Shown here: piece after piece, positions 2,809 through 28,394 of the stretch
Numbering within the stretch: position 1 is the stretch's first letter
Layout: each line of letters begins with the position of its first letter
IMG/VR virus record: IMGVR_UViG_3300025141_000562
Span: 1-28,394 of that record
Length of the DNA: 28,394 bases
Reading direction: 5' to 3' (one strand)
From: a virus
Notes under the pieces: model-generated
What the model saw: only the letters and a program-made list of their open reading frames with translations
The model's database searches: none
Told to the model about the DNA's origin: nothing
Made by a program: the position numbers and the translations under genes

Positions 2809-5800
2809 CTACTTCTCAGGCAAGGCGGGTGTCGCAGGGCCAACTGGGAACCCCGCGTCAGGAGGGGTCGCCCCCTCCGAACTCTGGATGTTCATGATCT
2901 GATCCATGAGATCATTCCTAGCCTTCTCAGACTCCCCGTACCTCATTATGGCGTCAATGTCAGCCTCGGTAAGTTTGGTGTTCTTTCTCAGGTATGCGCG
3001 GTGACCGACTTGATCCATGTCCCCCATAGCATCCCACAAGGTCTTATTGTAGCCACGCCAGAAGTTCCGCCGCTCCTGGGCCTCGTTGAGGTCGTAGAGC
3101 TTGATCCCCGTGAAGACCGGGAGGGCCCTTGTTCCCCAAGAAATGGGCTCCGGGTCCGCCCCGACCTCTCCGCTTGTCCCAAGGAGGTATCTCTCGGCAA
3201 TCATCTTGTTGTACTCAGTGACCAGCCGCCACATCGGGAAACTCTTAAGCATGGCCATCCGATAAGTCCCCAGCGAATTACTGTACCTGGGCTCGCCATT
3301 CTCCCCGATAAAGTGGCCAACCTCCCACTTCGTCCCAGACGGAATCTTAGCCCCCTTCTTGTACTCAAAGGTAGGGACTTCCTTCAGGCCAACAAACTCC
3401 CGGAACGGCCTCGGAAGATAGAGCACGTCGCGCCCCGACTTGATGGTCTTGGTTGGGACGTTGTAGTACATCTCATGGCCAAGGAAGCGTGAGAGGATCT
3501 GAGTCGCAGGGTGGGTCCTCGAGATAAGGTCTCCCGGCCTGAACATCGAGATGATGTCCTCTTCCGGGGTGCCGTACCTGGCGATAATCCGCGCCTTGCC
3601 CATGTTGGCGGCCAGGGTGAACTGGAGGTGCTCTGGGGTGAACAGGATGTCGTCCTTCTCAGAGAACCCACGTTCACCCATCATCATGACGTGTTGGAAG
3701 GCCGCGTACCTCTTTGGCTCGTTCGCCAGTAGGTAGGGCTGGAGAAGTCTGATGTTCTTTGACGACCAAGTGTAGAAGGGGAAGATCCTCCTCATCACGT
3801 TCTTCTCAAACGGCGAGAGCTTGAAGTAGTTGAAGATCGTCGCGTCCACAATCTCCCGGGCAGCGTCGTCGCTCAGCCCCTTGGCCTTTCCGGCAAACCA
3901 ACCAACGGCCTTCGCCTGCTCCTCAATCTTCACCCCGACCCCAGCGTGAACGATGAAGGCGGAGTTGGCCGCAACGGCAGCCCCACCACCACCAAGGAAC
4001 CCATACAGCATGTTTTTGACGATACGCTCAGGCCGACTCTCGTCCGGGGCCAGCGGGGAGAGAGCCCCGAAGCCGGCACCAGCAACACCCGTGGCCAGGC
4101 CCACCTTCGTTGCCGGGGACCCAGTAACCCCCTTAGCAAGGCGCTCTGCCCTAGACACGTTGGAGAGGGGTTTCGACCCGGTTGTAATTGAGTCCAGCCA
4201 GACATCAAGCGCGGCCGAGGTCGCAGCCTTGGTATTCCCCCACAGGCTTGGGTGCGCCCGAACGACCCCAGTCAAGTCTTGGCCCGGCTTAAAGGCGCCC
4301 CGGGCTGCCTTCAGGGGCTCCTTCATGTACAGGTCATAGATCGCCCCGGGGGCAGCGCCTCCGGTTCCACCCATTAAGACTCCGGCGAAGGCTTGGACGA
4401 GCTTTCTCCCCTCTGGGGTGTCGTCTGGGCCCATGTTGTAGCCAATCACCCCGCCTGCGGCGGCTCCTATGCCCGTGGTGACGAGGGGGGTGCCCAGACG
4501 ACCCGCCCGCACGATGTCTCCGCGGCTTTTCGCAGCTCTACGCATTTCCTCTGACCTGTAGCCGGGGCTAACCCACCCGGTCTTCATCCTCTTAAAGCCA
4601 AGCTGGATGTCCGACGGGTTCCAGTCGTCCATGAGGACGCCGACGTTCCTCATCTTCTCTTTCCACTCGCGGATCGTGCGAACTTCCTTTGACTTGAGTC
4701 CGGTGACCGGGTCGTTGATGTTCAGAGTGAATGTTCTCGGGCCAGCCTTCCGCCCGAGTCCGATCTCAAACTTCGTGATCTCCTCGGGGGCCACCAGGAG
4801 CCACATCATCTCCATTTGACGGACAGGATTGAGCGCGGCGGCCCCGTGGGCAATGTACGTAGTTACTACGTTTGAGAGCGCATTTCTCCCGTGAAACGCG
4901 ATTGCTGACACTGTGACCGACGCTTTAAAAAAGTTGAGCGTGTCCTGGAAGGTTCCTCCCACCAGCTCTTGGACCGGCCCAAGGCGCCGCCAGTCCGAAA
5001 GCCAATCTGGCTTGTTCATGTGTTCGACGAACGTCGCGACCTCATTCGGCAGGTAGAGCTCGTTCGCCAAGACCCTGCTTTGCATTTCCACAATGGGGTC
5101 TGATACGTCAATTTTTTGCTCCCTGAAAAAGCGCATGACGTCGTCAACGGCCGTTTCTGGGGATGAGTTCTTTAGAAGGGTAGAGACCTGGGCTTCGTAG
5201 GTCCTCCACCCCTCCCAAGCATTCGCCTCAAACACACCGCGGACGTAACTGACGCTATCAACCTTCCGATACCCGGCCCTGGTCGCCTCGAGATCAACAA
5301 TCTGCCTAGCCTCGCCCACAGTCTTCGGCATCTCCCCCGAAGCATTCCTCATGGTCTTCCAACGACCCCCACGAAGCATCCCAACGAAGGTGTCCCCCTT
5401 TGGGAATTGTTTTGCCATGTCTCGGCCAAACCGCTGCATTGCAACGCCAGCGGAGATGGCGTCCCCGTAGTGCTTCATGACGATGTGTGCTTGGTGCTCG
5501 TAGTAGCGGATCTTGTCGAGGCCCTCCTTCTCGACAAGGTGCAGCAGTTCGTCCAGGGGTGGGATCTCCTTTGCCGGAAAGGTTGGGTTCTTCTCCCGCC
5601 AAAGCATCTCGGCCATGCCAAGCTGGGTTCGCTGCTCCTTCTCGATCAAGATCCCCTTCTCTGTTCGCTGGAGGAGGGGTGCCGCAGCCGTGGGGTCCTT
5701 CCTCGTCATCAACTTGCTAAACTTCTTGAACCCACCCACGGTCATCATCTGGTGGGTATACCCCTCGACCTGCATCTTCTCGTACCACCAGGCCAGAGAC

Positions 5801-8800
5801 CGGCCCTTCGGCAAGAGCCCCTCTAGCTTCAGCAACTCAAAGGCCATCTTCTGCATGTCCCGAATAGCCTCGACAGCGGTCTTTGCTGCTGCCGACAGGT
5901 TCTTGTACTCAGCCGGGTCGAAGGTTGGGCGGCGAAGGGCTCGAGCTGACTGCCTGACATCTGCCAAAGACATTCCCTCGAGGGCCTCCAGATAGTCGTC
6001 AACAAAGGCCGGGTCCAGGGCCTTGGTTGCCTTGGTTACGACCCTGTCAATGTTGTCGTGAATTGAGCGGAGCGCTCGCAGTTCGTCAGCGTCCGCCACC
6101 CCGAGGAGTTCCTTGACCGTCTGCCTTATGATCTGAGCTCGGCCAACTTCGGCCTCAATCATCCCAAGGACTGGGCGCTCAAGAATGTCTGGCCCCGGAA
6201 CCCTCTCAAGGTCAGCCCCCCGAACGTCACGGATACCCGGACGCTCAAACTGCCTGCCCTCCTTCAGGGCGGGCTTATGCCTAGACAGTTTCTCCCGCAT
6301 ATTGCGGAGTTTCGCTGTGGTCGGGCGGGGCTTGAGCTTGGCAGGCTTGGCGATGTCCTCGATGATCCCAGCGGCGGAGACGGGGGGAGCGACTGGGGGA
6401 GTGACGGCCGCGGGGGGAGCGGGCTTCGGGGGCACCTTCGGTCGGCTCTCGTGGACGACATCAACAAGCCCGTCCACGACCCTCTTTGACGAAAAGGCCT
6501 CAAGCCCCGCCTTATCAAACGCCCATTGCCCAGGCCTACCCTCCGCCTTTCCAATCTTTTGGTACTTGTTCAGGGCCTTGTTGTAGTCCGACCTCCACGA
6601 CCGAGCCACCTTAGCCAGCGCCGGGTCAAGGGGGAGTTCGGATGAGATGTCGGATATTGTACGGAGATACGTTTCCAACTTGGTGCCGTGCTCGCCAAAA
6701 AGGGCGAGCCTTCTGGCGGCGGCGTCATCCATGCCCTCCTTCCCAGAGAGCCTGTGCTCATAAAGCCGAGAAAGGTACTCGTCCCTCTCTGCCTTAGTGG
6801 CCGTCGCTGGAGGCATATCCGGGGCAACCGGGGTGGGCTTAGCAATGTCCTCGATGATCCCAGCGGCCGAGGCGGGAGGGGCTTCGGGGGTGTACCTGGG
6901 AAGCGCCTCGCCAATGATAGTTGGTTCGTTCTCCCAGCCCAACGGTTTCTCAATTTTCCGGATCTCATCGTTGGCAATTTTTACGATGTCTGCGGTACGG
7001 TCAGACGGCTTTTTCTTCGCCTTACCTAAGATGGCGAGGGCGGCCTCTCTAGCGTCCACGACCGAACCGAAGAGCCAGCCCCCGAAGTCGGGGCTAAACA
7101 AATCTCTTGTGGTGGTTTTAGATATATCAACCAGTTGTCCAGGGTACTCCCACGGGGCCTGCCCTCCGTAGCCAGAGACAGTCAACTCCCACCCCTCGCC
7201 AGGAATTTTCGCAATGGTGGCGTTGGCGTGAAAGTGTTCGCCGGTTTCTGGGTGGGTTACGGTTCCTTGCCAAGACTCGCCCTTGTTCTTTGCGTAGTTT
7301 GTTCGTTCGGGGGCGGTCGCCTGAACGGGAGCGAGGGCCTCCTCGGCACCTGCTGCTGCGGCTGCAGGGGGTGGTTCGGGGGCTGCGGCTGGAGTTGGGG
7401 GCTTCTCGACCTTCGGCTTTCCGGGGAGCTCGTAGTACTCGGGCTTGATGCGGAAGCCATTTCCGTCGTCGGTCTTGGTTACGATCCCACTCTCAATCAA
7501 GTCGTCCAGAGCCTTATCCAGTTGTGTCTCGGAAACTGGCTTCGCCTTCTTGCGTCCACTCAGGAACGTAGAGAGGTCGTCCTTTGTGAAGGTTAGGCCG
7601 TGCTCGAGGAAACTCTCCGATGCCGGGATGTTGAGGTCCCGGATTGCTACGAGTCCCGCCTTGTTCTCTGCGATCATGTGCCTAGCAACCGTCTTGCTGA
7701 GCCTCCCGGATGGCAGCGGCGGGATGTCGGCCCTGGCAGCGGTCCTGGCTACGGGTCGGTACTGAATCCCCCTAGAGACGTGGCTCGTTACCCCCTGGAG
7801 GAGGCTCATCCCAACGTCGGCCATGTCGACGGGCTCCCCAAGGGCCTCCACGAACTTGCCTATCAGCTCGGCCTCCTTCTTGGTCCCCTTTGCCAGCATT
7901 ACGTCGTAGGCGAGCTTGTGGAACTTTGACCCGATAGCCCTCCTTGCTATGTCCTGCTTCCAGTACCCCTGGACGACCCGCTGGGCCTCTTGGTCTGTGA
8001 TCAGGTCGATGAGCTTCGCCGGCTTCCAGTTGGGAGCCTCCTTCGTCCCGTGGTTGACGTTCCACCCAAGGACACTGCTGTCCACCCCAAAGGCCCTCTG
8101 GACAAAGTCCGTCATGGGGCGCCTGCCCTCATACGCAAAGATTGCGTGATCGACCTGGGCCACCATCCGGCCAGCCCCGTCAAAGACCTTGAATAGGTTC
8201 CCCGTCGTCTTTTTCGGGAACATGCTGGCGGGCCTGAGTGGGTCGAACATCTCTGCCAACATGTGGTCTACGACCTCGTCTGGCGTCAGCTTCTTTGGAG
8301 CCTTGAGTCTCTCTATCTTTTTCTCTAGGTCGGCAATCTTCTTTATCTTGCGGGCCCTGGCGGCCGAGTCACCAAAGGGCACCGTGTAGGAGCCCGCGGC
8401 ATGGGTGCGATGCGCTTCGTCCCCTCTCAACTCGCCCCTTGCTGCATCAAGCTGGTCTTGAAGTCGAGTTGCCTGAGCGGCCTTCCCCTCGGGGATGACC
8501 ATCACGGGGGCCTCTTCGGGAATCAGGCCCCTTCTCTGTCGAATCTTCCGAGCGGCCCCCTTCCCGTAAAGGAAGTCACGAACAGCCTCCGCCCCAGGGG
8601 AGCCCTTCCCAGCAGCCGCAATCCTGTCAACAACTGCACCCACGGAGGGGATGGCGTCGTCCCCGTAGGTCACCAGAATCTTTGTACTGTCCAGGTATGG
8701 CACCCCCTCGTCAAAGCGGATGGCCTCGTCAAAGTCGATGTGCTTGACCTCGAGCCACGCGGGATCACCCTTCCCCCGGGCATGCCTGAGCGCCACAGTC

Positions 8801-11019
8801 CCTTTCCCGAGGTTTTCTGGGGTGTACTTAGCCCCCGCGCTGGCGAGGGCGGCTACTTGGTTGTAGACCTCATCCATGTTCCCGATGAACAGGTCCATGG
8901 CCGCGTTCTTTTCGCTCTGGCTTAGCTCTCGCCCGGCAGCAAGGGCGCGCTGCTCCATCTCCCCGACGACCCGCTGAGCCTGCCTCGCCTGCTGGGCGGT
9001 CCTCATCCGGTCGCCATGGCTCGTGAAGTATGACCCACCAGCCTTGAGCTTCGGTGCGCCCAAGAGTTTTTGGGCGCCAGCAAAGACCCCCTCGTAAGGC
9101 GCCGCAAGGTCGGGGGCGATGATTTGGAACATGTTCGCCGTCCACATTCCGGCAAGGGGGTCGCCTTCCTCGATCTGCTTGAGGATGTCCTTCCTCTTGG
9201 CCCCCGGAGTAAACAGCGCGGCAATGGGGTCTGGCGGCCCCTTGTAGTACTTGCTATCAATTCCCAGGGTGGTACCAAGGCCCCACCACCGGGCGTCCAC
9301 ATGGGACATCCACCGCTGCTCCTCCTTTGAGATGTAGGCCATCATCGCTGGGTCGTCTGTCTTAATCGGGCTTCCCCAGATCTTTGCCGCGAGGCCGCGG
9401 GACCGAATCTCCTGTGGCCCACTAAGCCGCTCCCCCGCCGCGATGATCCCCCCTCTTTCGATCTTCTGCCACGGGTGCGGAAGGTGGATGTTGAACCCGT
9501 AGGGGTCTAACGCATTGGCGTCCCAGTAGGCTTTCCTGAGTTGATTCTTCAGGCCCATCAGTCTGGCGTGGACGTTCGCGTCGTACAGACCCTCGACCCG
9601 GTTCTGCTCCTCGATGATTGATGGGATCTGCCCACCAGTCCCGCCAATTTCCTCAAAAATCGGCCCTCTCGGGTCCTTCGGGTGGAGGTTGTCAATCCAG
9701 GCCTGACGCTCGCCAGCCTCCATCTTGAAGAGGTAGTCCAAGTCGGCAGAGGCTGAGACCGTCGCGTAGAAGGGCCGACTGAACCAGGACAACACCTTCT
9801 CCAACTGAGTCGCCTTCTTCCAGCCCGGCGTCAGTCCTCCGGCCATGGGTGGCGTGTAGCCCTGGGCCATGAGGTTGTAGTCCTCCTGGTTGGGCAGTTG
9901 TGTATAGGCGTGTTCGGTGACGTACTTGGCAAGGGCCATTGCCTCGACTTGCTCCTGGGGGATACCAAGGATTTCGGAGATCTTTTCCGCCTTGTTGACG
10001 ACCTTCCTGGCCTTTGCATATTCTTCCTCCCTAGCTACGAGATTGGTTACGTGCTTGGTGGCGATGCGGTCGAGAAAGCGCCCGATGGCGGTACCCCCAG
10101 GCCCATAACCCCTGTGCTCATAGGCCAGGTCGTCTGCGATCCTGCTGGCGGCCTGCTGCAACTTCGCCTGACCCTCTTCGGTCCCGGGATCAAGCCAGCC
10201 CTCTTTGTCCCCCTCCATGATCTCAGAATAGGCCTCGTCAGCCCTCCGAGTCGTCGCGATTAGTGCCTCATGCTTAAGACCGTCTCGGTAAGCCTTCGTC
10301 ACCATCGCAGCCCGAGACGACACCCTGTCTGGGTGGCCCTCTGGGAGGTCATAGTTCACCCACGACGTAAGGGCTTCCGGACCCATCTCCTCCACAAGGT
10401 TAGATATTTCCGTCGCTTCGCTTGCACTCATCCCAAGCGCCTTTAGTCGCAAGAACTCCTCGCTCTGCTTGATGTCTCTCTGTGCGCCAATGTCCCGCCT
10501 CAGGGCCATGGCCTCCCGCTTGTGCTCGGCCCTCTCCGCGGGGTCTTCCGCCTGTGCCGCCCGCACCTCAATTCCTTGAATAGCGGCCTCCTCTGGGGTC
10601 TTGCCGGTCAGTGTCGAGCCGGGGTCCCACGCATCGAGAGGGCCCCATGTCGGATCGGGTGCGGCGCCGGGACCAGATACGCCCCCCTGCTGGATGCGAA
10701 GAGCCGGAGATTCCGGCACTGGGCCAAAGAGTCTCGCCTCGTCCAACTCCTTCTGCAGGGCCTCCTCCTCGTCTTTCATGCGCGTAACGAGGGCCTCGAC
10801 CTCCGCGTCTAAGCCCTCCGACAGCCTAACGGACACTGGGTCGAGCTCGGGAGCGCCTGGGGGCCCGACGAGCTCTTCTTCGGCCCCCCCAAGCCCGGCA
10901 AAGGGATCTGGCGCGGCTTGGGGGGCTACCTCAACGCCCGCCCCAAGGCCAGCGAAAGGGTCAGTCCCCACAGCGGGGGCCTCCTGTTTCGCGCCGAGAC
11001 CGGCAAAGGGGTCAGCCAT
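2809..11019 (-). CDS. Giant 2736-aa internal virion/ejection protein (T7 gp16 position)
   Basis: ATG at 11019, 9 nt after the upstream stop, preceded by a GGCGGGG ribosome-binding site. What is seen: three DPFAGLG motifs in the first 45 residues; a charged helical N-terminal third; a coiled coil near 843-910; a possible winged helix near 1140-1190; a Pro/Ala linker near 1203-1240; a small beta domain near 1253-1336; and a repeated SAAGIIEDIAKP motif near 1383 and 1547. Further on are long helices, AFHGRNALSNVV near 2040, Gly-rich hydrophobic stretches at about 2180-2232 and 2303-2364, and FPFYTWSSKN near 2410. Pairs like HxRNxLSN and PFYTW recur in very large phage structural or polyvalent proteins (recollection, not searched). 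By position and size it should be a core/ejection protein delivered into the host. I see no lytic transglycosylase or RNA polymerase signature. It is about twice the length of T7 gp16. Confidence 0.8.
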   Translation of the reverse strand: MADPFAGLGAKQEAPAVGTDPFAGLGAGVEVAPQAAPDPFAGLGGAEEELVGPPGAPELDPVSVRLSEGLDAEVEALVTRMKDEEEALQKELDEARLFGPVPESPALRIQQGGVSGPGAAPDPTWGPLDAWDPGSTLTGKTPEEAAIQGIEVRAAQAEDPAERAEHKREAMALRRDIGAQRDIKQSEEFLRLKALGMSASEATEISNLVEEMGPEALTSWVNYDLPEGHPDRVSSRAAMVTKAYRDGLKHEALIATTRRADEAYSEIMEGDKEGWLDPGTEEGQAKLQQAASRIADDLAYEHRGYGPGGTAIGRFLDRIATKHVTNLVAREEEYAKARKVVNKAEKISEILGIPQEQVEAMALAKYVTEHAYTQLPNQEDYNLMAQGYTPPMAGGLTPGWKKATQLEKVLSWFSRPFYATVSASADLDYLFKMEAGERQAWIDNLHPKDPRGPIFEEIGGTGGQIPSIIEEQNRVEGLYDANVHARLMGLKNQLRKAYWDANALDPYGFNIHLPHPWQKIERGGIIAAGERLSGPQEIRSRGLAAKIWGSPIKTDDPAMMAYISKEEQRWMSHVDARWWGLGTTLGIDSKYYKGPPDPIAALFTPGAKRKDILKQIEEGDPLAGMWTANMFQIIAPDLAAPYEGVFAGAQKLLGAPKLKAGGSYFTSHGDRMRTAQQARQAQRVVGEMEQRALAAGRELSQSEKNAAMDLFIGNMDEVYNQVAALASAGAKYTPENLGKGTVALRHARGKGDPAWLEVKHIDFDEAIRFDEGVPYLDSTKILVTYGDDAIPSVGAVVDRIAAAGKGSPGAEAVRDFLYGKGAARKIRQRRGLIPEEAPVMVIPEGKAAQATRLQDQLDAARGELRGDEAHRTHAAGSYTVPFGDSAARARKIKKIADLEKKIERLKAPKKLTPDEVVDHMLAEMFDPLRPASMFPKKTTGNLFKVFDGAGRMVAQVDHAIFAYEGRRPMTDFVQRAFGVDSSVLGWNVNHGTKEAPNWKPAKLIDLITDQEAQRVVQGYWKQDIARRAIGSKFHKLAYDVMLAKGTKKEAELIGKFVEALGEPVDMADVGMSLLQGVTSHVSRGIQYRPVARTAARADIPPLPSGRLSKTVARHMIAENKAGLVAIRDLNIPASESFLEHGLTFTKDDLSTFLSGRKKAKPVSETQLDKALDDLIESGIVTKTDDGNGFRIKPEYYELPGKPKVEKPPTPAAAPEPPPAAAAAGAEEALAPVQATAPERTNYAKNKGESWQGTVTHPETGEHFHANATIAKIPGEGWELTVSGYGGQAPWEYPGQLVDISKTTTRDLFSPDFGGWLFGSVVDAREAALAILGKAKKKPSDRTADIVKIANDEIRKIEKPLGWENEPTIIGEALPRYTPEAPPASAAGIIEDIAKPTPVAPDMPPATATKAERDEYLSRLYEHRLSGKEGMDDAAARRLALFGEHGTKLETYLRTISDISSELPLDPALAKVARSWRSDYNKALNKYQKIGKAEGRPGQWAFDKAGLEAFSSKRVVDGLVDVVHESRPKVPPKPAPPAAVTPPVAPPVSAAGIIEDIAKPAKLKPRPTTAKLRNMREKLSRHKPALKEGRQFERPGIRDVRGADLERVPGPDILERPVLGMIEAEVGRAQIIRQTVKELLGVADADELRALRSIHDNIDRVVTKATKALDPAFVDDYLEALEGMSLADVRQSARALRRPTFDPAEYKNLSAAAKTAVEAIRDMQKMAFELLKLEGLLPKGRSLAWWYEKMQVEGYTHQMMTVGGFKKFSKLMTRKDPTAAAPLLQRTEKGILIEKEQRTQLGMAEMLWREKNPTFPAKEIPPLDELLHLVEKEGLDKIRYYEHQAHIVMKHYGDAISAGVAMQRFGRDMAKQFPKGDTFVGMLRGGRWKTMRNASGEMPKTVGEARQIVDLEATRAGYRKVDSVSYVRGVFEANAWEGWRTYEAQVSTLLKNSSPETAVDDVMRFFREQKIDVSDPIVEMQSRVLANELYLPNEVATFVEHMNKPDWLSDWRRLGPVQELVGGTFQDTLNFFKASVTVSAIAFHGRNALSNVVTTYIAHGAAALNPVRQMEMMWLLVAPEEITKFEIGLGRKAGPRTFTLNINDPVTGLKSKEVRTIREWKEKMRNVGVLMDDWNPSDIQLGFKRMKTGWVSPGYRSEEMRRAAKSRGDIVRAGRLGTPLVTTGIGAAAGGVIGYNMGPDDTPEGRKLVQAFAGVLMGGTGGAAPGAIYDLYMKEPLKAARGAFKPGQDLTGVVRAHPSLWGNTKAATSAALDVWLDSITTGSKPLSNVSRAERLAKGVTGSPATKVGLATGVAGAGFGALSPLAPDESRPERIVKNMLYGFLGGGGAAVAANSAFIVHAGVGVKIEEQAKAVGWFAGKAKGLSDDAAREIVDATIFNYFKLSPFEKNVMRRIFPFYTWSSKNIRLLQPYLLANEPKRYAAFQHVMMMGERGFSEKDDILFTPEHLQFTLAANMGKARIIARYGTPEEDIISMFRPGDLISRTHPATQILSRFLGHEMYYNVPTKTIKSGRDVLYLPRPFREFVGLKEVPTFEYKKGAKIPSGTKWEVGHFIGENGEPRYSNSLGTYRMAMLKSFPMWRLVTEYNKMIAERYLLGTSGEVGADPEPISWGTRALPVFTGIKLYDLNEAQERRNFWRGYNKTLWDAMGDMDQVGHRAYLRKNTKLTEADIDAIMRYGESEKARNDLMDQIMNIQSSEGATPPDAGFPVGPATPALPEK
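6344..6375 (-). repeat. Direct repeat copy encoding SAAGIIEDIAKP (copy 2 in reading order)
   Basis: This segment matches 6836-6867 with only two mismatches. It includes a 23-nt identical core (6353-6375 versus 6845-6867) and lies exactly 492 nt, or 164 codons, away. Both copies encode the same 12-residue peptide inside the giant protein, each embedded in a Pro-rich linker. This may be recent duplication of a linker or conservation of a functional linear motif. Confidence 0.85.
6836..6867 (-). repeat. Direct repeat copy encoding SAAGIIEDIAKP (copy 1 in reading order)
   Basis: Partner of the 6344-6375 repeat, with a 23-nt identical core at 6845-6867. In the protein the peptide follows PEAPPA and precedes TPVAPDMPP, so it sits in a flexible linker between two helical domains. 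The intervening 164 residues do not look duplicated. Confidence 0.85.
10885..11013 (-). repeat. Three DPFAGLG-encoding repeats at the N-terminus of the giant protein
   Basis: The motif DPFAGLG occurs at residues 3-9, 20-26 and about 39-45 of the 2736-aa protein, separated by 10-12-residue linkers rich in Ala, Val, Pro and Glu. The DNA copies are similar but differ at third codon positions, so the peptide rather than the DNA appears to be conserved. Such spaced short motifs in a disordered tail usually act as docking peptides; the partner is unknown. Confidence 0.8.
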
Positions 11020-11028
11020 TATCCCCGC

Positions 11029-13446
11029 CTATAGCCTTGTGCGGGCGTCGGAAATCCCGAAATTATTACCTTCGGGGCTGGTGAACTCTTGGGTCGTGGG
11101 ATCCCAGGCGTAGCCCGGCTGCGCGAGGACCCGGTCGATCACCTGCTGGTCGGTGGGGCCGCCACCAGCGGGCCGTTCCGGCTGAGTGACCACAGGGGTC
11201 GGGGAGGGGGCAGGGGGTCGGGGAGGGGTCGGCGTTGTGCGCGGCCCCCTCATGCCGGGATACTGCTCTTGAACGGCAGCAATGATGGACAGAAAGTCTT
11301 CCCCTGACGGCGGGCGCCTAGTGCCCATCTGACGGAACATGGTTGAGAGGCGATTGTGCCCAGGTCGGCCCTGGGATTCCTCTCGAGCGATCATGCTCTC
11401 GGCATAGTTCTCATCTTCTGCCGTCACCGGGGTGTCTTGCTCTCCGGCCCTATTGTCCGCCCAGGCCTGAGAGAGGAGCCCCTTCAAGGCGTTCCTCTCG
11501 GAGAAGTTCAGCCTCGCCCCCTCAGTCATCTCGGCCTCTCTGGCGGCCTTCTCCTTGGCCCTGAGGCCAGCGTCCCAATTCGGAGCAAGCGAGCGGGCGA
11601 TGGCGTCCGTCCGCTCCATTTCCTTCCTAGCCTTGTCTACTCCCGTTCCCGTCTCTAGGGCCTGATCGTAGGCCGCTCTCGCCAAGACGGCATCGTTAAT
11701 GGCCCCCTGCTTGCTGGCCGCAGCCGCGACGGCAAGCCTATCTTTCCTCTCTGTGGCAAGACGGCCCCCAGCCGGATCTTGCATGAGAAGGCCCTCGCCC
11801 AGGTCGCCCTCTGGGGACCACTCACCAAGGCTGTCCTTCAACTTCTTGCGTTTGTCTCCAAGTCGAATCTTCTCAGCCTCGTCGGTTTCTATTGCCAACA
11901 TCGCATTTATCTCGTCAATCGCATCGAGGGTGGGTTGACGATCCTGGGCCTTCTGGTCAGCCCAGGCCTTCGACTTCTTCTCTCGGGTCTTCTGCTTGTC
12001 CCGAAGTTGGGAAAGACCAACCACGTTGCCGATGTGCCTGAGGCGCTCCGCCTGGGCTCGGTCGAGGAACTTGAGGGCCAGGGCCTTTGTGTCTTCGCGG
12101 GACATCTGCTCGGCCAGGTTCATGACGAAGGCGTCGTCCTTTCCCTTGAGGGACCGCTCCCCACGAAGCATCGAATAGGACCTCTTCACGAAGTCCTTTC
12201 GGACGGTCTCCGAGTACCTGTACTCATCGTTCATGGCCGCAGCCATGCGCTCCGCACCAATCTTGTCGCCCTCGTCCCGGAGGCCCTGCAGGTGGGCCGC
12301 TACGTCGTTGTACGCGGCCCTGAGGTCTCCCTGGCCTCGCTTGAACGGACGCCGTCCCTTGAGCTCTGAGTAGATGTCCTTGCCCATGGGGCCCGTGAGG
12401 ATGTCGACGAACTCAACCATTGAGTTGGGGGTCGCCCCGCCCAGCCGATCAAGGATGTCTGGACGCTTCAAGTCCCTGGCCTTTATCTGCGCCTCAACGG
12501 ACTCCACAAGTCGGTCTGCCCCACTAGCCCTCGGACCAGCCTTACCCGTAGCCCCTCTCTCGCGGCGGGCCTCAGCAAGTTGCTCAGCCTTTGTCGGACC
12601 TGGCAGGGTGACGGTCGGGGTCGGCTGCCCCGTGATCTGCTCCATAATCCCAGCGCCAGTGCCAGCCTTCCGCCTGGCCGACGCCGTCGCCCCGCGGGCC
12701 TCGCGGAGGGCCCCCTTGTGTGCTTCGGCAATGCGACGGGCCGACTCTCTTTCCGAGATCGGGTCTTCGGTTGACGCAAGGCCAGGCTGCACCTGTGTCG
12801 GAGGCCCCTGCCTTTCCACGGGAAGACCTTCTGGGATCGACTCGCCCGAGCCTGCCCGGTACGCAGCCTCAAGGGCCACCGGATCAATTACCGCTTGGGC
12901 GGGAGCCCTGTACTCCTCCCCGAGAAGGTCCGCAACCGGATCGGCGGCCCTTTCGGGCACCACGCCTGCGCCTGGACTGGTGAGCTCTCTGAGCTGCTTC
13001 TCGGTCTCGAGGTACGCCTTTAGTTGCGCGGCATCCCTGGCCCTCTGGGCCTCGATGTCATCGAATCCTGGAGCAAACGTCCTGGGGCCCCAGCCGCTCT
13101 GAGGCCCGGCTCCGCCTGTGCGCTGCATCCCAGTGGCTGGGTCAATGTAACTGTAGGGGGCTCCTGCGGCTCCTGCGGCGCCACCGCCGCTACCACCACG
13201 ACCGCCGCCACCGCCACCGCCACCGCCAGCCTCTCTCCTTTTGGCGGCACCAAGAATCTCAGCTCGCTCTTGGATCCGCTTCTGCTCTTCAAACTGGTCC
13301 TCCTTGAGGGCCATCATTCTGGCCATGCGCTCATGGGCAAGCAGTTGCCCCGGAATCTGGGCAAGGGGGGCGAGCGCCCGACTTTCGATCAACTCACCAG
13401 AAAGCGAACTTCCCGGGTAGTACTCATAACCACCTTGCTTTGACAC
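11029..13446 (-). CDS. 805-aa helical ejection protein (T7 gp15 position)
   Basis: GTG start at 13446 with AGGAG about 7 nt upstream, 22 nt after the preceding gene. The N-terminus (about 1-73) is helical and charged. A Gly-rich tract follows (residues 74-97, nine Gly in a row, then RGGSGGG and AAGAAGAP), and then a long Arg/Glu/Ala-rich, mostly helical chain. Pro-rich spacers occur near 740-760 (PTPPRPPAPSPTP). The C-terminal 45 residues (from GPTDQQVIDRVLAQPGY) look like a small folded cap. No enzyme motif or transmembrane segment is visible. Placed between a short hydrophobic protein and a giant protein, it matches the size and position of T7 gp15, which forms the periplasmic conduit for DNA ejection. 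That equivalence is inference from synteny, not from sequence similarity. Confidence 0.75.
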   Translation of the reverse strand: MSKQGGYEYYPGSSLSGELIESRALAPLAQIPGQLLAHERMARMMALKEDQFEEQKRIQERAEILGAAKRREAGGGGGGGGGRGGSGGGAAGAAGAPYSYIDPATGMQRTGGAGPQSGWGPRTFAPGFDDIEAQRARDAAQLKAYLETEKQLRELTSPGAGVVPERAADPVADLLGEEYRAPAQAVIDPVALEAAYRAGSGESIPEGLPVERQGPPTQVQPGLASTEDPISERESARRIAEAHKGALREARGATASARRKAGTGAGIMEQITGQPTPTVTLPGPTKAEQLAEARRERGATGKAGPRASGADRLVESVEAQIKARDLKRPDILDRLGGATPNSMVEFVDILTGPMGKDIYSELKGRRPFKRGQGDLRAAYNDVAAHLQGLRDEGDKIGAERMAAAMNDEYRYSETVRKDFVKRSYSMLRGERSLKGKDDAFVMNLAEQMSREDTKALALKFLDRAQAERLRHIGNVVGLSQLRDKQKTREKKSKAWADQKAQDRQPTLDAIDEINAMLAIETDEAEKIRLGDKRKKLKDSLGEWSPEGDLGEGLLMQDPAGGRLATERKDRLAVAAAASKQGAINDAVLARAAYDQALETGTGVDKARKEMERTDAIARSLAPNWDAGLRAKEKAAREAEMTEGARLNFSERNALKGLLSQAWADNRAGEQDTPVTAEDENYAESMIAREESQGRPGHNRLSTMFRQMGTRRPPSGEDFLSIIAAVQEQYPGMRGPRTTPTPPRPPAPSPTPVVTQPERPAGGGPTDQQVIDRVLAQPGYAWDPTTQEFTSPEGNNFGISDARTRL
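13159..13227 (-). repeat. Gly-rich low-complexity tract with hexanucleotide repeat
   Basis: Within the 805-aa gene, the sense strand reads three GGCGGT hexamers in a row and then continues with near-copies, encoding nine consecutive Gly and then a Gly/Ser/Ala-rich spacer. The repeat is prone to slippage in units of two codons, which would change linker length without a frameshift. Confidence 0.8.
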
Positions 13447-24935: not shown

Positions 24936-26873
24936 CTAGAAAGTTGGGACCCCGGGGGACGGGGCAAACGATGATTGCGCCGCGGCCGGGATAGTTAACG
25001 GCTCCCCCGTTGCTGGGTTCACGGCAGCGCCCGCCGCAATAGACTCCTCCGGCCCCGGGCCAGCCATCTCCCCCGGCGGCGGCTGCTGCTGCGGGCCCCC
25101 GCCAGCCTGAGTTGCTGCCTGGCCGAAGAGTTGGGCGAAACTGTCTCGGAGCTCAGGGCTGTCCTGTTCCCAAAGAGAGAGCGCCTTGTTGTAGAAGAGA
25201 GCGACCGCCTCCTGGGGAACCTGGGCCACGGTGAGCGCCTGAGCAGCAGACGCCAAAGCGTTCATGAATCCAATGTAAGCCTGGCGTTCAGCCTCGGGGC
25301 CAATCGGCTTCATTGAGCCGGCGTGGACACCGACGTCAAACTCTCCCCGGATGTCATGTCTTGTATACGACATCGGGGTGTCTCCTCCGGTAATCCGGAC
25401 CCACCGCTCTGCATCGTAGAACTGCTGCATAACCTGCAACGTCTTCCTTGCGACCGTGCGAACAAAGACCTCAAAGATTCGGAGTTTCGACTCCGAGCGG
25501 CCAGCGTGCATCGCAGCTCGGTACGAAACCTCCGTCGCTGACTTCGCGGAACTCCGCCCCCCGCGCATCGCCTCATCCCCGGCGCCCACTTCGTTCATGA
25601 GCCCACGAAGGATGTTGAAGGTTCCAAGGAACTCCTGGGGGAAGGCGGGCATGACTAGGTTGCGGACGTCGGCCGCCACGTTCTTACTCTTGGCGGCGAC
25701 CATCTGAGGGGTCTTCGATCCAAGAGCCGCCTTGGCCTGCTTGTCAAAGATGCCATCCTTGTAAACCGTCTTGAGCGCCATCGACGCCTCGAGGCCAGAG
25801 ACCGCCCCGTCAACTAGGCGCTGAAGACGCTCTGCCAGGGGGAGCATCTTGTGAACCAGGGAGATTCCGTAAAACTGGTCGTTCACCTTCTCAAAGCGGA
25901 GGTCGACAAAGGGGTAGCCCTCCATGTCTAGGGGGGAAAGTGCGTGCTTCAGGATAGTCGGCCCGCTGCCCTTAGAGCTTGGCTGCTGACAAGCCCACAG
26001 AACCCTCAACTCCTTCACTCGACGACGCTTCTTGCCGCCGCCCGTCCGAACAACTCGACTAGCCCAATCGTGATACCAGATCTCATAGACCTCGATGTGC
26101 TCAGCCTCTTCCTTCCGCCAAACATTCCCAACGCCGTCCTCATTGAGCGCGTCAATAGACTTCACCTTGTCTGGGAACAGGTGCTTTGTGTTTCCAAAGC
26201 GGTCGTCGTTTTTAATCTCGTCAATGTGAATTAAGTGGCGAACGGCAACCCACGGCATCCGGTGAATCTCGTCGTACCCGGGCGGGAAGATGAAGTTGAA
26301 CGGGGAGACTCTGAGCATCGTCGCATGTGCAGCAGACCTATCTGGGGGGATTCCCATCTCCTCGAGGCGGTCGCGAATCGTCTGCATGACCGTGTCGTCC
26401 TCGTCCACGTCATCCTCGTCCAGGTCCCGGTCATAGTCCTCGACAGGAACAAAGACCCCGGCGGGCTGATAGGTCACGCGACCAATTCCGGCAGACAGAA
26501 TCAGGGCGTCGTCGAGGATCTTCTTGCACTCGTTATTGAAGCCCCCCTCCTCCCACTCGTACATCAGAGCGGCCTGAGTCAGCTTTGCCTTCTGCTTCTC
26601 CTCGCCCAGCTCGGACGGGTTTCTTGGCTTTGCGAAGATCGACGGATCGTTGTGGAAAATATGAGGCTTGAGTGCGTCGATGGACGCCGAGATAATAGCG
26701 AGGCCGCGGTCCCCGTTCGGGCGCTCAACCCCAAGGCGGTAGGAGTCGAGCAACTTCCGCCAGTCGTCAAAGTGAGCCTTTCGGATGATCGACTCCGCGC
26801 TCAGGACCTTGTCCAAAAGGGCGGAAGCCTTCTCCTTCTTAACTGGCAGTTTCGTGGGGTCGAACTTCGCCAT
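24936..26873 (-). CDS. Portal protein
   Basis: 645 aa from the ATG at 26873, which overlaps the terminase stop as TGATG; GAGGT (26881-26885) lies 8 nt upstream. A longer GTG start at 26882 is possible but is less favoured. The N-terminal helices (LDKVLSAESIIRKAHFDDWRK), NDPSIFAKPRNPSE, a SPFNFIFPPGYDE stretch and later long helices fit podoviral portals in size and order. The P22-like group carries a similar asymmetry of charged loops. An acidic loop (EDYDRDLDEDDVDEDD) lies at about 142-160. The C-terminus is Pro/Gln/Gly-rich, probably disordered. It follows the large terminase directly, the usual packaging-module order. A dodecameric ring with the terminase docking on it is the expected role. 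Confidence 0.85.
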   Translation of the reverse strand: MAKFDPTKLPVKKEKASALLDKVLSAESIIRKAHFDDWRKLLDSYRLGVERPNGDRGLAIISASIDALKPHIFHNDPSIFAKPRNPSELGEEKQKAKLTQAALMYEWEEGGFNNECKKILDDALILSAGIGRVTYQPAGVFVPVEDYDRDLDEDDVDEDDTVMQTIRDRLEEMGIPPDRSAAHATMLRVSPFNFIFPPGYDEIHRMPWVAVRHLIHIDEIKNDDRFGNTKHLFPDKVKSIDALNEDGVGNVWRKEEAEHIEVYEIWYHDWASRVVRTGGGKKRRRVKELRVLWACQQPSSKGSGPTILKHALSPLDMEGYPFVDLRFEKVNDQFYGISLVHKMLPLAERLQRLVDGAVSGLEASMALKTVYKDGIFDKQAKAALGSKTPQMVAAKSKNVAADVRNLVMPAFPQEFLGTFNILRGLMNEVGAGDEAMRGGRSSAKSATEVSYRAAMHAGRSESKLRIFEVFVRTVARKTLQVMQQFYDAERWVRITGGDTPMSYTRHDIRGEFDVGVHAGSMKPIGPEAERQAYIGFMNALASAAQALTVAQVPQEAVALFYNKALSLWEQDSPELRDSFAQLFGQAATQAGGGPQQQPPPGEMAGPGPEESIAAGAAVNPATGEPLTIPAAAQSSFAPSPGVPTF

Positions 26874-28394
26874 CACAGCCACCTCGAGCCAACGTCGGCC
26901 TCGGCGGGCTGACGCATATCATCATCATCGTCCCATACACCGTAGTTTGGTGGTGGGTCTTCTTTTCTTCGTGGGTCGTTCCGGTTCGCCGCCCCGTGTT
27001 CAATATCACAAACAGCCTGCGCCTGTAGCCAACACATGACAAGGTCGTCGTGTTCTCCGGGCGGCGCCCCCACCTTTACTCGCTTGTGCATTTCGTCTCC
27101 AGATACCAGCGCCGTTGAGCTCGTACTCTTCTTCGTAAGCTCCATGAACATCCGCATCTCCTTAACTAGCCTCTCGCTACGAACTACCGGCATCCTAGAT
27201 CCAACAATGTCTATCCCGACGTGAACCATCACAGGCTTCGTCGCCACCGTAGTGCTCCACCCATACCTAGCATCGAAGTTTACCGACTCGATCATCTCGC
27301 GCTGGTACAGGTTCCAGTACTCAGTCTGCATTATCCCAAGGGATACAGCATGACCAACCCCGTTAATCTCCCAAGACAGGAGCGCATCGTTGTAGTGAAG
27401 AGCCAACAGCACGGCCCTTGCAGACGTCGGCAGGGCCTCCATCCGACTCTGAAGCTCGGCAACCTGGACCCTCGTATCTGTCCGAATGACCTGTATGGCG
27501 GTGTAGTCCCCTGACGAGCGCCCGGACGCCGGGTCAACGGCAACGATATAGTTGACCCCCTCCTGTGGGTGCTCCCAGACCCAAAGAGAGTCGTCTTCGG
27601 CAAGGCTCTTCCTCTTCAGAGTGGGCTCCATATAGCCCGCAAGGTTAAGCCTCTTGTCTGAGAAGTCCTGACCAGACTCGTCCACAATCGACCCCACGAA
27701 GATCGGCTTACGAACTCCGACCTTCTCGATCTCGGCCAACGACGGCTCCTCAAATACCCGGCTCGCAGAGAAGGCGAACGCCTCCTCCGGCTTCCCAGGA
27801 TACTCCTGCTTGAATAAGTCCCAGTCCCCCTGACACTTGTCCATCCAAGTCTTGTGAGCCCAGTGGGCCTGCTCAGGAGAGAGCCCGTACTCTCGAGTCA
27901 TCTCCAGGAGCGTCTCGTCAAACCTGGCCAGGATGTCCTTTGGCGAAACGCCTTCGGGCAACGGCCTCGCGTAGTTTGGCATCTCATGCCACGGGTAGAA
28001 GATCGACTCCCAATCGCTATCGACCTTGTTTCCCTTACTGTCCTCCCCGCGCCAGGCCTTCCAGAACTCTCGGTGGAAGTAACCACCCGACCCGTTTGCC
28101 GTCGACTCCAAAACCACCAGAGTCTCCGGGTCATCGGAGATAGTCTGCATCAACCCCAGCATGAAAGTCTCCGGATCGCTCCAGAACGCAATCTCAGAGC
28201 CGTGAAAGTAATGAATCTCAAAACCTCGCGTGGAGTGGACCGCATCAGCGACAGAGACCTCAAATCTTGAGTTAAGACCCGCCGTCTCGTCCAGTGGATG
28301 AGTCATCCAAAGCTCATTGTCGTTGTTTCTCCTGAGCTCTGGCCGAAGGTCCTCCATCTTCTTGCCCTCATCGAGCGCCTCGAGCAACTCCTCC
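26873..28394 (-). CDS. terL: Terminase large subunit, C-terminal part (5'-truncated)
   Basis: The frame is open to the right edge (28394), so the gene starts outside; the ATPase Walker A region is missing. Visible motifs, numbered from the first in-frame TTG at 28387: a Walker-B-like FEIHYFHGSEIAFW near residue 60, a coupling motif VLESTANG near 95, and then an RNase H-like nuclease. The nuclease has VAVDPASGRSSGDYTA (Asp near 285), SWEINGVG (Glu near 340) and GEHDDLVMCW (Asp pair near 455), matching the three acidic positions of phage headful nucleases. The tail is Pro-rich and acidic (VWDDDDDMRQP), as in terminases whose C-terminus contacts the portal. Its function is ATP-driven DNA translocation and concatemer cleavage. 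The stop overlaps the portal start. Confidence 0.92.
   Translation of the reverse strand, partial: EELLEALDEGKKMEDLRPELRRNNDNELWMTHPLDETAGLNSRFEVSVADAVHSTRGFEIHYFHGSEIAFWSDPETFMLGLMQTISDDPETLVVLESTANGSGGYFHREFWKAWRGEDSKGNKVDSDWESIFYPWHEMPNYARPLPEGVSPKDILARFDETLLEMTREYGLSPEQAHWAHKTWMDKCQGDWDLFKQEYPGKPEEAFAFSASRVFEEPSLAEIEKVGVRKPIFVGSIVDESGQDFSDKRLNLAGYMEPTLKRKSLAEDDSLWVWEHPQEGVNYIVAVDPASGRSSGDYTAIQVIRTDTRVQVAELQSRMEALPTSARAVLLALHYNDALLSWEINGVGHAVSLGIMQTEYWNLYQREMIESVNFDARYGWSTTVATKPVMVHVGIDIVGSRMPVVRSERLVKEMRMFMELTKKSTSSTALVSGDEMHKRVKVGAPPGEHDDLVMCWLQAQAVCDIEHGAANRNDPRRKEDPPPNYGVWDDDDDMRQPAEADVGSRWL

Follow-up and report, generated by a model that had tools for sequence, protein, structure and literature searches.

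Phages with short tails need an envelope-crossing machine of their own, and the gp16-type proteins diverge fast and are mostly unannotated. The genes of the podophage ejection operon follow a common order, in which a gp14-like protein (about 180-240 aa) is succeeded by a gp15-like protein (431-982 aa) and a gp16-like protein (609-1337 aa) (PMC8954989). Members of the last group are strongly divergent, and the N-terminal lytic transglycosylase present in T7 gp16 is absent in P22 gp16 (PMC8954989). The virion RNA polymerase of N4 represents another type of giant virion protein that is injected together with DNA (cited in PMC5512222).

The window analysed here is an entire IMG/VR record of 28,394 bases from a marine phage, with undefined ends, and the lineage of the record as a whole appears to be without isolates. 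Its most extended gene product, called the giant protein below, is encoded on the minus strand by 2736 codons open from an ATG (Table 1). Our results describe its relationship to a wide superfamily of large phage proteins. We propose that it is probably an ejection protein in the gp16 position of a podovirus related to P22 and SU10, composed of three parts and designed as a delivery protein of the polyvalent type.

The gene order on the minus strand begins with the terminase, a P22/SU10-type portal, the major head protein (PHROG 9953) and a protein with the SU10 adaptor domain. It continues with an 804-aa gene resembling virion or internal proteins, three smaller genes and a 219-aa gene, and ends with a 242-aa gene, an 805-aa gene, the giant gene and five smaller genes. 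Gene order and the portal and adaptor matches place the giant gene amid virion or late genes. The trio of 242, 805 and 2736 aa has the ejection order described in PMC8954989, with the third gene far larger than the gp16-like range. Neighbours of this kind are kept in relatives, where a small hydrophobic protein and a protein of 575-916 aa precede the giant one. The preliminary description, which had put the gene at the T7 gene-16 position and called its product ejection-type, is supported by this order and by the conserved neighbours. Comparison of T7 gp14 and gp15 and of P22 gp7, gp20 and gp16 with the two neighbours revealed no sequence homology, and for no member of the trio did we find significant homology to the ejection proteins of T7 or P22. 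Two further observations concern the surrounding genes. Searching 50,697 phage records by tblastn with the portal protein (24936-26882) gave no match at E<=1e-3, though Pfam recognises a P22/SU10 portal. An 18-base tandem repeat at 13183-13228 is translated into a poly-glycine tract of the 805-aa protein.

Between the 805-aa gene and the giant gene downstream of it, the start follows the preceding end by 9 nt, and a purine-rich AGGCGGGG terminates 3 nt ahead of its ATG. A homologue with 3204 open codons is present in a related record (L002/L099, IMGVR_UViG_3300006736_000017). The two proteins share 71% identity over 2685 aligned codons, in which changes amount to 0.34 at codon position 3 versus 0.22 and 0.18 at the other two. 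Because of the long open frame of the relative, this identity and the excess of changes at the third position, the frame is protein-coding and does not occur by chance; it is genuine and conserved, as the uninterrupted 8.2-kb frame noticed earlier had implied. A third contig represents nearly the same phage in its upstream part, and about ten further members of the family exist. With 2.08 times the length of T7 gp16 (1318 aa), the protein agrees with the earlier estimate of about twice. Both the Pro/Ala linkers (about residues 1205-1238, 1376-1405 and 1528-1550) and the Gly-rich hydrophobic segments described before are present, the latter including a second stretch found by eye at residues 2179-2225.

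Table 1. Features of the giant gene and its two upstream neighbours, with residues of the giant protein where applicable.
Feature	Residues	Positions	Strand	Basis
Giant 2736-aa ORF, probable ejection-type protein in gp16 position	1-2736	2809..11019	-	Open frame from ATG and gene position
805-aa protein in gp15 position		11029..13446	-	Gene position; counterpart adjoining giant in relatives
242-aa protein in gp14 position, with strong hydrophobic segment		13469..14197	-	Gene position and hydropathy; counterpart adjoining giant in relatives
Motif copy 1, DPFAGLG	3-9	10993..11013	-	Repeat search
Motif copy 2, DPFAGLG	20-26	10942..10962	-	Repeat search
Motif copy 3, DPFAGLG	38-44	10888..10908	-	Repeat search
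N-module	345-1120	7660..9987	-	Conserved in close family, 23-28% identity
Hypervariable middle, putative cargo region	1121-1559	6343..7659	-	Alignment
Winged-helix-like segment, weak	1146-1198	7426..7584	-	Secondary-structure prediction, together with several Pfam matches below threshold
Cassette 1, part predicted beta strands	1239-1380	6880..7305	-	Structure prediction
Linker repeat 1, PPASAAGIIEDIAKP	1381-1395	6835..6879	-	Repeat search
Cassette 2, predicted helical	1396-1540	6400..6834	-	Structure prediction
Linker repeat 2, PPVAPPVSAAGIIEDIAKP	1541-1559	6343..6399	-	DNA nearly identical to last linker of L099
C-module, helical	1560-2736	2812..6342	-	Aligned throughout close family; predicted structure
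Superfamily core part 1, NFFKASVTVSAIAFHGRNALSNVV region	2028-2051	4867..4938	-	Conserved columns, profile comparison
Gly-rich hydrophobic pair, possible membrane segments	2306-2363	3931..4104	-	Hydropathy scan; stretch absent from distant relatives
Superfamily core part 2, FPFYTWSSKN	2413-2422	3754..3783	-	Motif and conserved columns

Searches with the giant protein itself returned little. Neither the whole protein nor its C-terminal third has a significant tblastn match in the 50,697 phage records, and scans of the whole protein against Pfam, PHROGs, NCBIfam and PDB sequences gave sub-threshold scores only. The preliminary description had proposed a piecewise search for enzyme or polyvalent-protein domains; Pfam scanning of ten pieces yielded nothing above threshold. 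Its statement that signatures of transglycosylase and N4-type polymerase are missing agrees with the Pfam scans: no SLT transglycosylase domain was matched in the protein, whole or in pieces, and no RNA polymerase module of T7 or N4 type in Pfam, PHROGs or the pieces. More generally, no effector or enzyme domain was recognised by Pfam, PHROGs, NCBIfam or the piecewise scan, so that a known enzyme in the giant protein is not supported by domain scans. The LPD38 model (PF18857) has no match in 30 records, nor in any control genome, and other LPD domains were missing from Pfam scans of the giant protein, whole or in pieces. A full-length match to a characterised gp16 family, regarded in the preliminary description as contrary to its view, was looked for and not found.

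Relatives were obtained through the C-terminal part of the protein. Loci were gathered by a DNA scan of IMG/VR for FPFYTWxxKN, which retrieved 86 stretches. Analysis covered 80 loci, and in these the motif is located near the end of long ORFs, the longest with 2275 aa. Close relatives score 230-550 bits and distant ones about 20-77 bits. Full-length members of the close family have 1900-2196 aa, except the 3204-aa one, and in an alignment of eight members the C-module is alignable almost throughout. The signature of the superfamily core reads K...FHxRNxxSN ... GxxIE ... FExxvmRRiFPFYTWxxKN, with K, FHxRN, N, GxxxE, FxY, E, R, FPFxTW and KN as conserved columns. The hydrophobic pair located between the two parts of the core passes the hydropathy scan with maxima of only 1.39 and 1.36. 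Comparison of close and distant profiles by hhalign gave E=2.6e-41 as a whole. Since the loci had been collected by the retrieval motif, it was cut out of the profiles; the upstream parts then still matched at E=5.7e-16 and the downstream parts at 4.8e-8, with reversed controls at 0.1-0.3. Judged by these profiles, the C-terminal core of the giant protein is homologous to a wide superfamily of large phage proteins, which is unrecognised by Pfam and NCBIfam scans. The earlier view of the gene as the largest unexplained block of the window therefore no longer holds for the C-terminal 1177 residues, which belong to this broad phage superfamily; in the variable middle, the scans recognised no enzyme.

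Proteins bearing the core are Arthrobacter phage Jasmine gp29, Cellulosimicrobium phage DS1 QSJ04773 and Microbacterium phage Shocker gp37, further Phormidium phage Pf-WMP4 ORF31 and one from a Manatee Spring record that goes under the name Podoviridae sp. In all of them, the core gene is situated within the structural or late region; it is followed by a gene for an endolysin or peptidoglycan peptidase in Jasmine, DS1 and Shocker. Of these, Jasmine is a podovirus, and its tail measures 10 nm (PMC5513430). Pf-WMP4 ORF31 matches PHROG 19395 along its whole length and the profile of the distant superfamily at E=3e-5, and one distant locus (L016) matches PHROG 19395 at E=3e-11. A homologue of ORF31 has been solved (PDB 9k3a_A, 'Tail protein', E=1e-76); the paper behind this entry was not found in our literature search. 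A direct link from the giant protein to 9k3a was dropped, as the match is lost once Pf-WMP4 ORF31 leaves the profile. Directly upstream of ORF31, ORF32 (L192:5708-10087), labelled ParB-like, carries a C-terminal ADP-ribosyltransferase (Pfam, 38 bits over a cutoff of 23.4). A genome scan for the core revealed only two contigs, both labelled archaeal MAGs. These short contigs (L172 and L173, labelled Pacearchaeota and Natrialbaceae) are probably viral or misbinned, though an archaeal host is conceivable.

The middle of the protein behaves differently from its flanks. In the eight-member alignment, residues 1121-1559 are hardly alignable except with the nearest relative, and even between the giant protein and this 3204-aa relative the flanks are conserved and the middle is largely unalignable. 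The variable region is bounded by linker repeats: a Pro-rich linker ending SAAGIIEDIAKP is present twice in the giant protein and, in variant form, three times in L099. The last linkers of both are approximately identical in DNA while the sequence between linkers differs, a pattern that suggests swapping of cassettes at these repeats. Neither cassette has IMG/VR relatives outside its own phage. At the end of the L099 slot, a stretch (VNDGIHRLEALRKMGKK) resembles a ParB/Srx motif by eye, without confirmation by Pfam. In a distant member (L067, 7762-12888, minus strand), the core is preceded by a Zeta-toxin kinase (Pfam, 36 bits, cutoff 22). From these sequence patterns we infer that the middle slot has a lineage-specific cargo function. 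Another distant core protein (L088, 585-5576, minus strand) includes a kinase-like stretch, HGIIMGDTHGSNLMI ... MDAGRFDD, with a weak PHROG kinase match at E=0.035.

The N-terminus carries three copies of the peptide DPFAGLG, which is absent elsewhere in the record; none of 100 shuffles reached the repeat score. Pairwise comparison of the three copies, with the counts added up, gave differences at 15 of 17 synonymous sites and 0 of 46 replacement sites. As synonymous sites have diverged and replacement sites have not, the copies are old and constrained, and by this measure they are under strong purifying selection. Relatives have N-terminal peptides of their own: SRFGGVLE (three copies), DRFGNPIDE (two), SRFLDEE (three), SEVDWSGVD (two), IRLTDI (four) and DFxPTxK (four to five). 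In twelve proteins with N-terminal repeats, ps is 0.65 and pn 0.09, with non-independent pairs and with eye-picked patterns that lower pn. A uniform test detected an N-terminal tandem motif at p<=0.01 in 14 of 33 core proteins, in contrast to 15 of 239 other ORFs (6%) of the same contigs (Fisher p=2e-7, the true significance being lowered by kinship within each set); about half of the core proteins have no detectable repeat. A peptide kept within a protein but differing from phage to phage points to a private partner, in the simplest case a component of the head, and the repeats may serve as a packing or docking tag. A literature search on N-terminal motif arrays brought nothing useful. In two relatives, a tandem motif (HPDGSLAAK / HPRGTAATK) also begins the product of a gene downstream of the giant one (L106, 10909-11931; L033, 3331-4308), perhaps another docking repeat.

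An AlphaFold2 model of the C-module (pLDDT 62, pTM 0.45) is almost all-helical, and the long helices of the preliminary description are thus borne out at the level of prediction. Searched with this model, PDB gave no fold match at E<=0.001, and a viral fold library gave eight at E<=0.001 with low TM-scores. The list of viral folds is rich in names such as 'Large polyvalent protein associated domain', 'ART-PolyVal-like', 'Zeta toxin' and 'LT_GEWL'. These model-based matches support kinship to polyvalent proteins without proving it, the TM-scores being low. The model of the N-module and middle (pLDDT 47) was left out of fold searching, and the N-module alignment used for one scan offered no conserved part suited to it.

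Several other interpretations deserve consideration. A divergent true orthologue of T7 gp16, serving as a mechanical DNA conduit in which the extra length is a spacer and no separate cargo exists, would fit the gene position and neighbours; gp16 proteins are, as PMC8954989 emphasises, highly divergent. The C-module aligned with T7 gp16 alone at E=0.0016 in hhalign, the best value among the reference proteins tried. This tempting match is lost with family profiles, however: E rises to 0.022 with the gp16 family profile and is 0.3 with the distant superfamily profile. The SLT transglycosylase domain is also missing, and the middle is cassette-like between repeated linkers rather than a simple spacer. 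We therefore regard orthology as unlikely. Far less credible is a tape measure protein of a long-tailed phage. Glycine-rich hydrophobic stretches are a feature of some tape measures, and the giant protein shares them, together with great length, helical character and a place in the late structural region; yet the portal is of P22/SU10 type and the adaptor of SU10 type, no tape-measure match was found in Pfam or PHROGs, no tail-tube gene was recognised in the record, itself a fragment, and the core-bearing isolate Jasmine is a podovirus.

Hardly more credit can be given to a tail fibre or host-specificity protein, the label borne by Pf-WMP4 ORF31 and PHROG 19395. The label of this nearest named family and the 'Tail protein' name of 9k3a favour it; the giant protein is, however, predicted to be almost all helical and lacks fibre repeats, separate smaller genes after it are fibre candidates, and the label resembles an old transferred annotation. 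The N-terminal repeats might also be a neutral by-product of recent duplication with no docking involved, the remaining ejection model being kept. Short repeats arise easily, 6% of other ORFs score too, and the copies of L103, L078 and L183 hardly differ in DNA. The DPFAGLG copies, with about 17 synonymous sites almost all changed and no replacement, argue against this, as does the enrichment in core proteins, though the phages are related; we consider a neutral origin improbable.

The ejection protein reading is favoured by gene order, portal and adaptor type, conserved neighbours, the core superfamily, the podovirus Jasmine and the polyvalent-rich fold list; a literature search found no virion proteomics for any superfamily member. 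Packaging, ejection, docking by repeats and cargo function of the giant protein are what we infer from these data. During head assembly, the N-terminal tail with its three phage-specific DPFAGLG copies would dock the protein to a matching partner, probably a portal, scaffold or core protein. By analogy with what is thought for T7 gp16, it would then exit the head via the portal in a partly unfolded state and regain its fold in envelope and cytoplasm. The conserved helical C-module would act as a structural core and help DNA and cargo across the envelope, and exchangeable modules on the repeated linker would bring lineage-specific activities in the middle slot. Tentatively, a widespread unnamed class of injected proteins could represent a delivery chassis, with a C-terminal ejection module, an effector slot exchanged at linkers and an N-terminal, phage-private docking array that co-evolves with its head partner and decides packing. 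The signature FHxRNxxSN ... FPFYTWxxKN, marking such proteins across unrelated phages, would make many hypothetical proteins assignable. The N-terminal tandem peptides offer a simple, testable handle on the recruitment of internal proteins into the capsid; new injected activities may be sought in the slot between the linkers.

Compared to described systems, the giant protein shares with T7 gp16 (internal virion protein D) and gp16-like proteins the position after gp14- and gp15-like genes, a helical character and hydrophobic stretches towards the C-terminus; it differs in its doubled length and in the lack of the SLT transglycosylase domain and of significant homology. Unlike the N4 virion RNA polymerase, it has no polymerase domain in Pfam scans. 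Jasmine gp29, Shocker gp37 and DS1 QSJ04773 are likewise large (1743-1803 aa), uncharacterised, core-bearing and encoded in the structural region, with a likeness confined to the core; N-module and cassettes were not detected in them. Pf-WMP4 ORF31 and 9k3a_A have the FPFYTW-type core in common with the distant superfamily; their link to the giant protein is indirect, as the profile of the close family fails to match ORF31 (E=0.13). Polyvalent proteins (Iyer et al. 2017, PMC5512222), with their LPD domains, are similarly very large, multi-modular and encoded among late or virion genes. They carry effector domains, as does the distant relative of the giant protein with the Zeta toxin; in the giant protein itself, the scans recognised neither several disparate effector domains nor an enzyme, and its C-module matched no Pfam model, LPD38 being silent in the control genomes as well. 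As a probable polyvalent-type ejection protein it would belong to a kind that is already known, and it is the putative cargo slot and the N-terminal repeats that look new.
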